Source: Stygiobacter sp. (lineage in GTDB: Bacteria > Pseudomonadota > Alphaproteobacteria > Rhodospirillales > Magnetospirillaceae). From it: a DNA stretch of 64,000 bases. Position 1 is the stretch's first letter, and each line of letters starts with the position of its first letter. Made by a program: the position numbers and the translations under genes. The notes beneath the pieces are model-generated. The model saw only the letters and a list, made by a program, of their open reading frames with translations, was not told the DNA's origin and did no database searches. The DNA lies in contig VBWB01000032.1 in assembly GCA_006218045.1 (NCBI GenBank), positions 1 through 64,000 on the forward strand, in the 5' to 3' direction. Below, one piece after another: positions 12,771-41,900 of the stretch.

Positions 12771-12868
12771 TAATTGAACCACAGAGACACAGAGGCACAG
12801 AGATATCGTGCTGGCTTTGAAACACAGTCACCTCTGTGTCTCCATGCCTCCGTGGTTATTTTCAATTA
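12771..12868. repeat. imperfect palindromic repeat, family A copy 1 (lpd/sucB gap)
   Basis: Inverted arms AACCACAGAGACACAGAGGCACAGAGA (12777-12803) and CTCTGTGTCTCCATGCCTCCGTGGTT (about 12833-12858) are separated by about 30 bases. The palindrome extends outward as TAATTGAA/TTCAATTA and includes the sucB stop codon. The same arms recur at 21.9 kb and 38.3-38.9 kb. It fills almost the whole sucB-lpd gap. Confidence 0.9.
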
Positions 12869-21874: not shown

Positions 21875-21967
21875 GAAAACCACAGAGACACAGAGGCACA
21901 GAGAGGGGGGGCTTGGTGGCGACATCTCCGCCTTTTGGCGAGCTCTCTCTGTGCCTCTGTGGTTTCC
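21875..21967. repeat. imperfect palindromic repeat, family A copy 2 (mtaB/ftsY gap)
   Basis: The left arm at 21876-21908 begins AAAACCACAGAGACACAG. The right arm at 21944-21967 reads CTCTCTGTGCCTCTGTGG followed by TTTCC. They are separated by about 35 bases, and the arms extend outward with GGAAA/TTTCC. The arms match those at 12.8 kb and 38.3-38.9 kb. The element ends three bases before the mtaB stop codon. Confidence 0.92.
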
Positions 21968-36693: not shown

Positions 36694-37016
36694 GGAACCT
36701 CCCGAGATATCCCGTTTCCCCCCGGTCGCGGGAAAGCGAGTAGGCTATCCGGAATCCCCCCTTAAGGCAATGACTCTGTCACGCATTACCGGGTTGAATT
36801 TCTTACATTTTGTTTTACCCTGCGGAAAGCTTGACGGGATCGGTGGATTTCGATAAGAAGCGCCCGTTTGCCTGCCGCATCTTGGGCCAACGTGGCCCCG
36901 CCCGGGAACATCGCCTGTCAGATCAAGGTGAGTTCTCGCGTTCGTGTGCGCCACACGCATATTATAGACACCCTCGTTCCCACCCCTGGGACGACACGCG
37001 ATTAAAAAGGACCATC
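36694..37016. other. 323-base divergent intergenic region (yqeY-like / carA)
   Basis: I see no gene. It contains an AT-rich patch at 36790-36820, with a weak plus-strand promoter candidate TTGAAT (36794-36799), 16 bases, TACCCT (36816-36821). If used, this would give carA a leader of about 190 bases. The carA frame is open through most of it but shows no conservation. AAAAAGGA lies just before the carA ATG. Confidence 0.5.
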
Positions 37017-38198
37017 ATGCCGAACCACGCCGCGGAGCCCGCCTTCGACATTCCGCGTCCGCCGGGCGCCACCGCCGCCCTGGTCCTGGCCGACGGCACC
37101 GTGCTGTGGGGCAAGGGCTTCGGCGCCACCGGCCGGTCGGTGGGTGAAGTGGTGTTCAACACCGCCATGACCGGCTATCAGGAAACCCTGACCGATCCGT
37201 CTTACGCCGGCCAGATCATCACCTTCACCTTCCCCCATATCGGCAATGTCGGCACCAATGTCGAGGACATCGAGACCCTGACCCCCGCCGCGCGCGGCCT
37301 GATCGTGCGCGCCGACATCACCGACCCGGCCAACTGGCGCTCGGCCAAGCATCTGGATGCCTGGGCCAAGTCCCATAACCTGATCGGCCTGTCGGGCATC
37401 GACACCCGCGCCCTGACCCGGCGCATCCGCGACCAGGGCGCCCCCAACGGCGTCGTCGTCCATGCCGAGGACGGTGCCGTGGATTTGGCCGCCGCCTGGC
37501 GCATGGCCAAGGTCTGGCCCGGCCTGGAGGGCATGGATCTGGCGCTGGACGTGTCGTGCACCCAGGCCTATGCCTGGGACGAGACCGAATGGACGCTGGG
37601 CCAGGGATACGGCAAGCAGGCCGATCCCAAGTTCCACGTGGTCGCCATCGATTACGGCGCCAAGCGCAACATCCTGCGCTGTCTGGCCAGCGCCGGCTGC
37701 AAGGTCACCGTGCTGCCGGCCAAGTCGACGGCCGAGGATGTTTTGCGGTATCAGCCCGATGGCGTCTTTTTGTCCAACGGCCCCGGCGACCCGGCGGCGA
37801 CGGGCGAATACGCGGTGCCGATGATCCAGGGCGTCATCGCGTCCGGCAAGCCGCTGTTCGGCATTTGCCTGGGCCATCAGATGCTGTCGCTGGCCCTGGG
37901 GGCCAAGACCTTCAAGATGGATACCGGCCATCGCGGCGCCAACCACCCGGTCAAGGATCTGGAGACCGGCAAGGTCGAGATCACCAGCCAGAACCATGGC
38001 TTCGTCGTCGATGAGTCGTCGCTGCCGGCGGATGTGGAAGTGACCCACCGGTCATTGTTCGACAAGTCGGTGGAGGGCATCAGGGCCAAGGGCAAGCCGG
38101 TGTTTAGCGTGCAATACCACCCGGAAGCCAGCCCTGGGCCGATGGATAGCCATTATCTGTTCGACCGGTTTGTCGAGATGATGGGCCGGTCAAAGTAA
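37017..38198 (+). CDS. carA: carbamoyl-phosphate synthase small subunit
   Basis: A 393-residue glutaminase subunit that supplies ammonia for carbamoyl phosphate in arginine and pyrimidine synthesis. The N-terminal CPSase domain has NTAMTGYQETLTDPSYAGQ. The class I amidotransferase domain has the nucleophile in FGICLGHQML and the catalytic His/Glu in VQYHPEASPGP. I start at the ATG at 37017, with an AAAAAGGA ribosome site; 69 further upstream codons are open but unconserved. carB normally follows directly. Here 754 bases intervene, with repeats and a GxxExxY gene. Confidence 0.96.
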   Translation: MPNHAAEPAFDIPRPPGATAALVLADGTVLWGKGFGATGRSVGEVVFNTAMTGYQETLTDPSYAGQIITFTFPHIGNVGTNVEDIETLTPAARGLIVRADITDPANWRSAKHLDAWAKSHNLIGLSGIDTRALTRRIRDQGAPNGVVVHAEDGAVDLAAAWRMAKVWPGLEGMDLALDVSCTQAYAWDETEWTLGQGYGKQADPKFHVVAIDYGAKRNILRCLASAGCKVTVLPAKSTAEDVLRYQPDGVFLSNGPGDPAATGEYAVPMIQGVIASGKPLFGICLGHQMLSLALGAKTFKMDTGHRGANHPVKDLETGKVEITSQNHGFVVDESSLPADVEVTHRSLFDKSVEGIRAKGKPVFSVQYHPEASPGPMDSHYLFDRFVEMMGRSK

Positions 38199-38236: not shown

Positions 38237-38265
38237 TGGATTCCCGCCTGCGCGGGAATGACGAC
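38237..38265. repeat. short hairpin repeat ATTCCCGCCTGCGCGGGAAT, family B
   Basis: ATGGATTCCCGCCTGCGCGG plus GAATGACGA forms a stem, ATTCCCGC/GCGGGAAT, with a four-base loop. Similar ATTCCCGC-GCGGGAAT elements are common dispersed repeats in proteobacteria (dRS3-like). It lies 38 bases after carA and could also slow or end transcription. Confidence 0.7.
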
Positions 38266-38318
38266 GAAAAAGTGGGAATGATGTTCGTCGATAAAAGGAA
38301 ATCTATCCCCATGGTTTG

Positions 38319-38796
38319 ACCTCTCTGTGCCTCTGTGCCTCTGTGGTTAAACTTTTTACGCAAGGACAGCCGATGACCACGCCCCGCGACCCGCTGACCG
38401 ACCGCATTCTCGGTTGCGCCATCGAGGTCCACCGCACCCTGGGGCCGGGATTGTTGGAATCGGCGTACGAGGAATGTTTGTGCTATGAACTGACCCAAGC
38501 CGGAATCGCCGTCAGACGGCAGGTGCCGCTGCCGGTCAGATACAAGCAGGTCAGTCTGGAGTGCGGTTACCGCATGGACATCCTGGCCGAGGCTCAGGTG
38601 GTGGTCGAATTGAAGACGGTGGAGAAACTGCTTCCCGTCCACGACGCGCAAATGTTGACCTATCTGCGCCTCAGCGGCTGTCGGGTGGGTCTGTTGATGA
38701 ATTTCAACGTCCCCATACTGCGGGATGGGATCAAAAGGTTGGTTCTGTAGGAGGATTAAAGAGAAAACCACAGAGACACAGAGGCACAGAGAGAAC
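38319..38796 (+). mobile_element. putative small mobile or repeat-borne unit: inverted repeats around a GxxExxY gene
   Basis: Inverted arms at 38319-38351 (ACCTCTCTGTGCCTCTGTGC then CTCTGTGGTT) and 38764-38796 (AAAACCACAGAGACACAGAG then GCACAGAGAG) enclose a single gene, giving a 478-base unit. A further arm at 38871-38900 is a near-identical direct copy of the first. The same arms occur without the gene at two other loci in this window. No target-site duplication is obvious. Mobility is inferred from the layout, not shown. Confidence 0.5.
38373..38750 (+). CDS. GxxExxY protein (PD-(D/E)xK-like domain)
   Basis: A 125-residue protein with the defining GLLESAYEECLCYEL (G-x-x-E-x-x-Y) motif near residue 30. 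Next come YRMDILAEAQVVVELKTVEK, where D and ExK fit a PD-(D/E)xK nuclease core, and the family end LLMNFNVPILRDGIKRL. The function of the family is not established. It is inserted between carA and carB and bordered by inverted CACAGAGGCACAGAG-type repeats. The ATG at 38373 is preferred; the frame upstream only translates the repeat. No strong ribosome site is visible, which leaves expression uncertain. Confidence 0.85.
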   Translation: MTTPRDPLTDRILGCAIEVHRTLGPGLLESAYEECLCYELTQAGIAVRRQVPLPVRYKQVSLECGYRMDILAEAQVVVELKTVEKLLPVHDAQMLTYLRLSGCRVGLLMNFNVPILRDGIKRLVL

Positions 38797-38900
38797 GTGC
38801 CGGGCGGTGACGATGTGGCCTAATCTCCTGCTGACCAATCATTAAAAGATGAAGTATCCGTTTGGTTTGGCCTCTCTGTGCCTCTGTGCCTCTGTGGTTA
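38764..38900. repeat. imperfect palindromic repeat, family A copy 3 (before carB)
   Basis: The left arm at 38764-38796 and the right arm at 38871-38900 are inverted copies separated by about 75 bases, a longer loop than in copies 1 and 2. The left arm also serves as the right border of the GxxExxY unit. The carB ATG follows 52 bases later. Confidence 0.9.
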
Positions 38901-38952: not shown

Positions 38953-41900
38953 ATGCCCAAACGTACAGACATCAAATCCATCCTGATCATCGGTGCCGGT
39001 CCCATCGTCATCGGTCAGGCGTGCGAGTTCGATTACTCGGGCGTGCAGGCGTGCAAGGCGCTGAAGGAAGAGGGTTACCGGGTCATCCTGGTCAACTCGA
39101 ACCCGGCGACCATCATGACCGATCCCGGTCTGGCCGACGCCACTTATATCGAGCCGATCACGCCCGAGGTGGTGGCCAAGATCATCGCCAAGGAACGCCC
39201 CGACGCCCTGCTGCCGACCATGGGCGGGCAGACGGCGCTCAACACCGCCATGAAACTGGCCGATGACGGCACCTTGGAAAAATACGGCGTCGAGATGATC
39301 GCCGCCAAGCGCGACGTCATCGCCAAGGCGGAAGACCGCCTGCTGTTCCGCGACGCCATGGACAAGATCGGTCTGGACAGTCCCAAATCCCGCGTCGTCC
39401 GCACGCTGCAGGAAGCGCGCGACTCGCTGGATTTCGTCGGCCTGCCGGCGATCATCCGCCCCAGCTTCACCCTGGCCGGCACCGGCGGCGGCATCGCCTA
39501 TAACATCGAGGAATACGAAACCATCGTTTCCGGCGGCCTCGCCGCGTCCCCCGTGCATGAAGTGCTGGTGGAAGAATCGGTGCTGGGCTGGAAAGAGTAT
39601 GAAATGGAGGTTGTCCGCGACAAGAAGGACAACTGCATCATCATCTGCTCCATCGAGAACGTCGATCCCATGGGCGTGCATACGGGTGATTCCATCACCG
39701 TCGCCCCCGCCTTGACCCTGACCGACAAGGAATACCAGATCATGCGCAACGCCAGCCTGGCGGTGCTGCGCGAGATCGGCGTCGATACCGGCGGCTCCAA
39801 CGTCCAGTTCGCCGTCAATCCCAAGGACGGGCGCATGACGGTGATCGAGATGAACCCGCGGGTGTCGCGCTCGTCGGCCCTGGCCTCCAAGGCCACCGGC
39901 TTCCCCATCGCCAAGGTCGCCGCCAAGCTGGCCGTCGGCTATACCCTGGACGAGTTGGCCAACGACATCACCGGGGTGACGCCGGCCAGTTTCGAGCCGA
40001 CCATCGATTACGTCGTCACCAAGATTCCGCGCTTCACCTTCGAGAAGTTCCCCGGCGCCGACCCCAACCTGACCACCTCGATGAAGTCGGTGGGCGAGGC
40101 CATGGCCATCGGTCGCACCTTCCAGGAGAGTCTGCAAAAGGGCCTCAGGTCCATGGAAACCGGCCTGACCGGCATGAACGAGGTGGAAATCCCCGGCGCT
40201 TCCGCCGCCGACCGCAAGGCCGCCATGAAGAAGGCGCTGGCGACGCCGCGCCATGATCGTCTGCTGGTCATCGCCCAGGCCTTCCGCCTGGGTCTGAGCG
40301 TGGATGAAATCCACGCGGCGTGCTCCTACGACAAGTGGTTCCTCGAGCAGATCAAGGGCATCGTCGATGCCGAGGAAGAGGTCCGGGCCAAGGGCCTGCC
40401 CATCGACGCACCGGGCCTGCTGCGGCTGAAGAAGATGGGCTTCTCCGACCAGCGTCTGTCGGAATTGTCGGGCAAGACCCTGACCGAGACGACGTTCCGC
40501 CGCGAGGTGTTGAACGTCAAGCCGGTGTTCAAGCGCATCGACACCTGCGCCGCCGAGTTCCCGTCGTCCACCGCCTATATGTATTCGTGCTACGAAGGCG
40601 ATGGCATCAACGCCGCCGAATGCGAGGCCGACGTGTCGGATCGCGACAAGGTGATCATCCTGGGCGGCGGTCCCAACCGTATCGGCCAGGGCATCGAGTT
40701 CGATTATTGCTGCGTCCACGCCGCCTATGCGCTCGACGATGCCGGCAAAGAGACCATCATGGTCAATTGCAACCCGGAAACCGTCTCCACCGATTACGAC
40801 ACCTCGGACCGCCTGTATTTCGAGCCCCTGACCGCCGAAACGGTGATCGAACTGGTGCGCAAGGAACAGAGCAAGGGCCGGGTGCTGGGCTGCATCGTCC
40901 AGTTCGGCGGCCAGACGCCGCTGAAGCTGGCCCATGCGCTGGAAGATGCCGGCATCCCCATCTTGGGCACCAGCCCCGACAGCATCGACCTGGCCGAGGA
41001 CCGCGAGCGCTTCCAGGGTCTGCTGCACGAGCTGGGTCTGAAGCAGCCGCCCAACGGCACGGCGCGTTCGCTCGACGAGGCCAAGGCGGTGGCCGACCGC
41101 ATCGGCTATCCGGTGGTCATCCGCCCCAGCTTCGTCCTGGGCGGTCGCGCCATGCAGATCGTCTATGACCATGAAGCGCTTGAGCGCTACATGAAGGAAG
41201 CGGTGGTGGTGTCGGGCAAGGACCCGGTGCTGATCGACTTCTATCTGAAGAACGCCATCGAGGTGGATGTCGACGCCCTGGCCGACGGCACCGACGTCTT
41301 CGTCGCCGGCATCATGCAGCACATCGAGGAAGCCGGCATCCATTCCGGCGATTCCGCCTGCTTTGGCCAAGGCGCTCGACGTGCGCGGCCTGATGAACGT
41401 GCAATATGCGGTCCAGGACGGGGTGATCTACATCCTGGAAGTCAATCCGCGCGCCAGCCGCACCGTGCCCTTCGTCGCCAAGGCCACCGGCATTCCCATC
41501 GCCAAGATCGCCGCCCGGATCATGGCCGGCGAGTCGCTGGCCAGCTTCAACCTCAAGAAGGAAAAGCTCGACCATGTGGCGGTGAAGGAAGCAGTATTCC
41601 CCTTCGCCCGTTTCCCCGGCGTCGACATCCTGTTGGGGCCGGAAATGAAATCCACCGGCGAAGTCATGGGCATCGACAAGGATTTCGCCCTGGCCTTCGC
41701 CAAGGCCCAATTGGGCGCCGGCACCGTGCTGCCGACCGAGGGCTGCGTGTTCATCTCGGTGCGCGAGGGCGACAAGCCGGCCATGGTCGCGGTCGGCCAG
41801 CAATTGCAGGACATGGGCTTCAAGCTGATGGCCACCGAAGGCACGGCCCGGACGCTCCGCGATGCCGGCTGCACCGTCCAGGTGGTCAACAAGGTGCTGG

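Follow-up and report, generated by a model that had tools for sequence, protein, structure and literature searches.

Across at least 14 named phyla, small genes of the GxxExxY family are usually accompanied by inverted arms of tandem heptamers, and the letters of the arms are matched to the gene. Genes and arms together probably form a cognate nuclease-palindrome system, in which the protein would recognise the arms, cut there and bring about their copying. The locus considered first lies in a window of 64,000 nucleotides (the whole stretch of Stygiobacter sp. DNA analysed), in which a GxxExxY gene is located between carA and carB. The features of the window are the following.

37002..38198, + strand, reading frame of carA, the upstream neighbour (family match)
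38292..38349, no strand assigned, 58-nt direct repeat, 84% identical to 38843-38900
38321..38348, - strand, upstream arm with three CACAGAG heptamers, right end of a truncated palindrome copy
38373..38750, + strand, GxxExxY gene, 125 aa, predicted PD-(D/E)XK nuclease fold (ORF, family profiles, alignment and model)
38766..38793, + strand, left arm of the downstream palindrome
38872..38899, - strand, right arm of the downstream palindrome
38953..41361, + strand, carB, the downstream neighbour, until a frameshift near 41361 (family match)
21878..21964, no strand assigned, gene-free palindrome of 87 bp
12777..12857, no strand assigned, gene-free palindrome 5' of a dehydrogenase gene, right arm degenerate

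The GxxExxY reading frame starts with the ATG at 38373 and ends with the stop codon at 38748-38750, within the carA-carB gap. An earlier note on this DNA had described the product as a 125-residue protein with a GxxExxY motif and a D...ExK core, and the family profiles agreed, since the protein is a member of both TIGR04256 GxxExxY (153.9 bits, cut-off 35) and PF13366 PDDEXK_3 (146.9 bits, cut-off 22). The inverted arms that the note placed around the gene, and a third arm that it took for a direct copy of the first, were recovered as well. The pairs 38321-38348/38766-38793 and 38766-38793/38872-38899 are both inverted, 28 nt long and 96% complementary, the downstream palindrome (38766-38899) has a loop of 82 nt, and the 58-nt direct repeat identifies the upstream arm as what is left, on the right, of a second such palindrome. 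The gene is flanked by this right-hand part upstream and by the complete palindrome downstream, and the resulting arm order (-, gene, + ... -) is not the commonest orientation among the loci. The same arms form gene-free palindromes at two other loci of the window, 12777-12857 and 21878-21964, as had been claimed. Allowing up to two mismatches, CACAGAGGCACAGAG occurs 11 times in the 64-kb window against 0.07 expected. An Rfam search of the window returned three tRNAs and nothing else. The same carA-carB gap holds a second palindrome, TTCCCGCCTGCGCGGGAATGAC (38241-38262), which is unrelated to the arms and presumably resembles repeats common in proteobacteria; sequences like it are found near other palindromes of the host genome and of a relative, G007. 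The carB frameshift (window 41360-41362), where about 59 bp are missing with respect to G007 and the remainder lies in another frame, could stem from the assembly or mean that the gene is broken.

The window protein was aligned with the proteins of 52 of the 80 named loci described below (alignment A2, 53 rows; L144, L162 and L185, the last with a stop in its reading frame, were among those left out). Residues G26, E29, Y32, D69, E79 and K81 are invariant, and D69, E79 and K81 are the D...ExK of the window protein. The AlphaFold2 model built on this alignment had a mean pLDDT of 94.4. The solved folds nearest to the predicted model by Foldseek were LHK-Exo, lambda exonuclease, Cas4 SSO0001 and AddAB, the best match having an E of 1.9e-3 and a probability of 1.00 and none reaching an E of 0.001 or less; a sequence search for a solved structure gave no match at an E of 1 or less. 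The modelled protein appears most similar to nucleases of the Cas4/RecB/lambda-exonuclease type, with which it also shares the spacing of D...ExK followed by QxxxY, which we take to be a motif of those nucleases. It differs from Cas4-type proteins in that it stands alone, has about 120 residues and scores 13.1 bits with the Pfam Cas_Cas4 profile, under the cut-off of 22.7 bits; no cas genes were noticed in its vicinity. The dN/dS ratio was 0.04-0.18 in the seven computable pairs of eight close GxxExxY pairs, which indicates that the gene is under purifying selection. A phage-borne gene was considered and judged unlikely; the viral-contig scan gave one relative, and two proteins had no PHROG match. 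Within the portions consulted of the open-licence literature that mentions GxxExxY, neither an assigned function nor a tie to repeats was found, and the arm letters had no match in the open-licence PMC literature.

GxxExxY was present in 41 of 199 order-level genomes. The CACAGAG core was present in 34 of the 199, namely 22 of the 41 with GxxExxY versus 12 of the 158 without it. The CACAGAG arm family that the earlier note proposed is real in the window and in the genome, but it proved to be only one among many. All these arm types follow a common grammar of tandem C(A/G)CNNA(G/T), with letters that vary from gene to gene. The arm types ending in G (CACAGAG, CACGAAG, CACCAAG, CACAAAG, CACTAAG and CGCAAAG) have a period of mostly 8-9, and those ending in T (CACAGAT, CACGGAT and CACGAAT) a period of 10. 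An arm was detected by script on at least one side of 52 of the 59 order-level GxxExxY genes, in a table from which three rows of G093 and one of G071:C20 were removed as matches to gene fragments. Two of the seven genes found armless by script, L089 and L107, have degenerate arms by eye.

A wider set consisted of the best 80 loci from a scan in which each of 84,980 species was represented by a single genome; as they were ranked by likeness to the window protein they are no random sample, and the viral locus L201 was left out of the counts. The phyla mentioned at the outset are those of the armed loci in this set, one of which, an archaeal locus, is a short MAG contig in which contamination is possible. 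Arms were located within 200 bp of 75 of these 80 GxxExxY genes (five had none at that distance) versus 21 of 220 further reading frames in these loci, the latter being greedy ORFs of 100 aa or more and not annotated genes, so that the expectation that GxxExxY genes adjoin the repeats far more often than other reading frames was borne out. The count was 70 of 74 when only loci with both flanks were considered. Within 150 bp of the genes of the best 80 loci the arm density was 9.6/kb for + arms upstream and 8.4/kb for - arms downstream; at 0.5-4 kb it was 0.00-0.20/kb per strand. Any gene interrupted by an in-frame stop was taken to end there, so that its downstream side may be misplaced in the density, in the counts within 200 bp and in the comparison of flanks given below. 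A reversed pattern used as control had 22 matches upstream and 13 downstream within 150 bp, both strands included, versus 149 and 138 for the arm pattern; we think that the reversed-pattern matches near genes are contained in long tandem arms. A + arm upstream together with a - arm downstream, an arrangement that places the gene inside a palindrome, was found in 38 of the 74 named loci with both flanks. Fifteen of these genomes had 30 further or repeated loci, where 23 of 26 genes placed by motif had an arm (some of the 26 repeat genes of the 80), and more distant GxxExxY genes in seven of these genomes had one by script in 15 of 20 cases.

The host genome (G000, 4.33 Mb in 62 contigs) contains 76 exact CACAGAGNCACAGAG cores, mostly within gene-free palindromes of about 90 bp, versus 4 for the reversed control, and 88 versus 30 when one mismatch is allowed. 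These 88 cores are grouped in 22 regions, 18 of which have arms in both orientations by script. The search of the whole genome extended what the earlier note had seen in the window, since palindromes that have these letters and no gene are scattered over the host genome. Their usual form is AACC, three heptamers, loop, three heptamers, GGTT. The loop measured 41-46 nt in 15 of 18 palindromes, and in 13 of the 18 it was related to another loop, an indication that the scattered copies arose by copying. At one place (L047 1562-2088, contig 49) two complete palindromes and a partly unread one are found in tandem, with near-identical 41-nt loops. Three GxxExxY genes are present in this genome: that of the window, one before ureC with CACGAAT-type arms, and one before addA at a contig edge.

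The letters of the arms are matched to the gene at several levels. The commonest heptamer was identical on both sides in 29 of the 34 order-level genes with two-sided arms, the upstream and downstream flanks of a gene matched each other better than flanks of different genes (median 16 vs 9), and the gene's own partner flank was the best match in 24 of 75 genes. Exact searches covered one arm type in 199 genomes and three more in 80, and 16 genomes carry a GxxExxY gene with one of these four types. At least three dispersed copies were present in 16 of the 17 cells that pair a genome with the arm type of its gene versus 28 of 147 other cells, a match that none of 20,000 row permutations equalled. 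For example, G147, with CACCAAG gene arms, has 271 CACCAAG cores and none of the CACAGAG or CACGAAG type, and G007, with CACGGAT gene arms, has 37 CACGGAT and 2 CACAGAG cores. At least three copies of any searched type were found in 27 of the 41 GxxExxY genomes versus 6 of 39 genomes without the gene (part of the 158); none of the four types reached three copies in 14 of the 41. One genome, G140, has four GxxExxY paralogues and four arm types.

The matching extends to the protein. The family falls into two classes by a C-terminal indel, situated between NF and the last basic residues, and all short-loop proteins were associated with T-ending heptamers (25) and all long-loop proteins with G-ending heptamers (115). 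There was no exception among these 140 genes, which are those with a clear majority heptamer out of 156 (two mixed and 14 armless genes were set aside) and for which the class was assigned by eye from the tails in 13 of the 115 long-loop cases and one of the 25 short-loop cases (L322). Frames under 95 aa (L144, L162, L185 and L251) were left out of the class and tree analyses. As the split corresponds to one change on the tree, it reflects long joint descent and not repeated switching, and joint descent alone may account for it. The finer arm letters form nested clades and follow the protein tree, with 45 changes versus 56 or more in 300 shuffles. When covariation between residues and letters was examined, supported branches supplied few independent pairs (3 to 7 among those listed), and no clear residue-to-letter code emerged.

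These results bear on the idea that gene and repeats merely share a niche, the gene landing and surviving in repeat-rich gaps whose repeats derive from some other element or serve to terminate or stabilise RNA. Some genomes without GxxExxY are indeed rich in repeats (45 cores in G002, 19 in G005, 15 in G074 and 12 in G058, with 27 and 14 cores of two other searched types in G018), and the palindromes, which lie in short gaps, fold as strong hairpins (z -6.2 to -10.9 in the four folds tested). We nevertheless regard a shared niche as very unlikely, because it does not agree with the genes found inside palindromes, with letters that are matched to both gene and protein class, or with the rarity of arms at other ORFs of the same loci.

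The carA-carB gap holds 16 of the 59 order-level GxxExxY genes, all of them co-directional with carA and carB. The location is not peculiar to one genome, in which respect the earlier note is corrected, and a recent insertion private to the host genome is ruled out by the same count. The GxxExxY lineage at this site is unlinked to that of carB (r = 0.007; 120 pairs, 16 genes). Two same-genus pairs have carB sequences 96% identical and GxxExxY at 59% and 64%; L091 and L092 are 94% identical in both, so that fast evolution alone is no explanation for the unlinking. Other homes of the gene are before ychF (L101 by family, L098 by eye), before addA (L032/L053, L053 by family; L271 by eye), before ureC (L033) and before kdsA (L093), and the sharing of the ychF or the addA site by two genera hints at further preferred sites. 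The patchy presence at one conserved gap, in lineages unlinked to the neighbouring gene, and the further genes next to ychF, addA, ureC and kdsA are reminiscent of homing, in which the nuclease would cleave carA-carB and similar sites between genes and its gene would reach empty alleles through recombination, with arms of regulatory or incidental nature. This is quite unlikely: the GxxExxY genes differ from homing endonuclease genes in their cognate repeats and dispersed gene-free copies, homing leaves unexplained both the arm letters that match such copies and the split of arm and protein classes, and in the wider scan 2 of the 81 listed loci were at carA-carB.

Comparison of 22 readable carA-carB gaps showed the gene in four (G000, G006, G024 and G028), a gene-free palindrome of the CACGGAT/CACAGAT type in four (G007, G004, G010 and G013), and neither in 14, two of which (G005 and G009) have remnants by eye. 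Sites without the gene thus exist in relatives and GxxExxY genes are enriched at the repeats, so neither of the refuting outcomes named in the earlier note occurred, and its reading, in which the protein may act on, move or protect palindromes, is partly supported. The gap of G001 also bears the gene, and before it there is an array of palindromes (L270 903-2256) with alternating arms at a spacing of about 193 nt, which indicates that palindromes can also amplify in tandem. The site at 12777 has CACAGAG palindromes in G000, G002 and G004, a CACAAAG-type palindrome in G006, like the arms of the G006 gene L108, and no palindrome in G001, G005, G007 and G008. A GC-rich hairpin occupies this gap instead in G005, G007 and G008 (L333-L335), and perhaps the hairpins there have a terminator or mRNA-processing role. 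The site at 21878 is occupied in G000 alone among nine genomes, the eight others being same-genus relatives (the flanks aligned well in G007 and fairly or poorly in the others).

Two palindromes common to G000 and G007 differ in arm units, 3+3 vs 2+2 and 3+3 vs 1+2. The first of these changed alike on both arms, and this, together with the different arm types borne by the same intergenic sites in relatives, would suit a nuclease that maintains palindromes spread by other means, trimming or converting them and homogenising their arms, so that the copies would be substrates and not offspring. The related loops of 13 of the 18 scattered host-genome copies point instead to copying, as does the absence of the 21878 element in relatives, and maintenance of this kind is in our estimation unlikely.

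In organisation, the cognate system proposed here is best read as similar to RAYT/REPIN, with an enzyme unrelated to HUH transposases. REP sequences and REPINs are described (PMC3116915, PMC8266576) as short inverted doublets that fold into hairpins and are scattered intergenically, with a RAYT/TnpA-REP gene beside its cognate repeats and groups of RAYT genes that go with their own repeat type. The GxxExxY system likewise has many inverted doublets forming hairpins and a gene flanked by, and matched to, its own repeats. It differs in that the enzyme is a PD-(D/E)XK nuclease and not an HUH protein, the enzyme by which RAYT is defined, and in that the arms are tandem heptamers with a period of 8-10 and the gene is often inside the palindrome. 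It is highly improbable that these are ordinary REPs which owe their spread to a RAYT (HUH) transposase and not at all to GxxExxY. The REP/REPIN-like organisation (PMC3116915) and a Y1_Tnp gene in 7 of 16 repeat-bearing genomes are compatible with it, but Y1 HUH transposases (PF01797) had no match in G000 and in 8 of the 15 other repeat-bearing genomes, G007 included, assembly gaps being possible, and none of the eight Y1_Tnp loci had an arm. Gene-bearing and gene-free forms with common inverted ends are also a property of MITEs and insertion sequences with TIRs. The GxxExxY unit differs from these in the size of its gene-bearing form, about 0.45-0.5 kb, in having no known transposase, and in that a comparison of a few sites, whose borders have diverged, revealed no target duplication.

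The cognate reading can be put as a sequence of steps. The small PD-(D/E)XK nuclease would recognise arms of the type that goes with it, probably when these are extruded into a hairpin or cruciform, and would cut at the recognised arm. Cutting would drive the copying of whatever the arms enclose, whether or not this includes the gene, and the copies would enter short gaps between genes or cistrons and cause no target duplication. Both arms would be kept alike by conversion or by repair templated on the hairpin. Several observations count against this reading, namely the repeat-rich genomes that lack the gene, the 14 of 41 GxxExxY genomes with few repeats of the searched types, the minority of genes that have no arm, and the lack of a target duplication at the sites compared. 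A broader proposal, which we advance tentatively, is that GxxExxY genes and their arms may constitute a class of minimal mobile DNA that extends across phyla. Each unit would measure about 0.45-0.5 kb and encode a single nuclease, roughly 115-125 aa long and similar to Cas4 and lambda exonuclease; by processing hairpin or cruciform arms in a sequence-specific manner it would spread both itself and gene-free palindromes, as a convergent counterpart of RAYT/REPIN with an unrelated enzyme.

The pattern suggests an undescribed kind of small repeat-spreading element based on an unexpected enzyme. GxxExxY is a common family for which no assigned function was found, and many bacteria carry intergenic palindromes of obscure origin. 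If the two are cognate, both puzzles would merge into a single system that is open to experiment and offers many natural variants of specificity, among them two deep protein and arm classes and a single genome with four paralogues and four arm types. Such a system would represent a route of repeat spreading that uses neither HUH nor DDE enzymes, as well as a source of very small sequence-specific nucleases. Should the reading as a class of mobile DNA also be true, a large group of unattributed bacterial intergenic palindromes would be explained.
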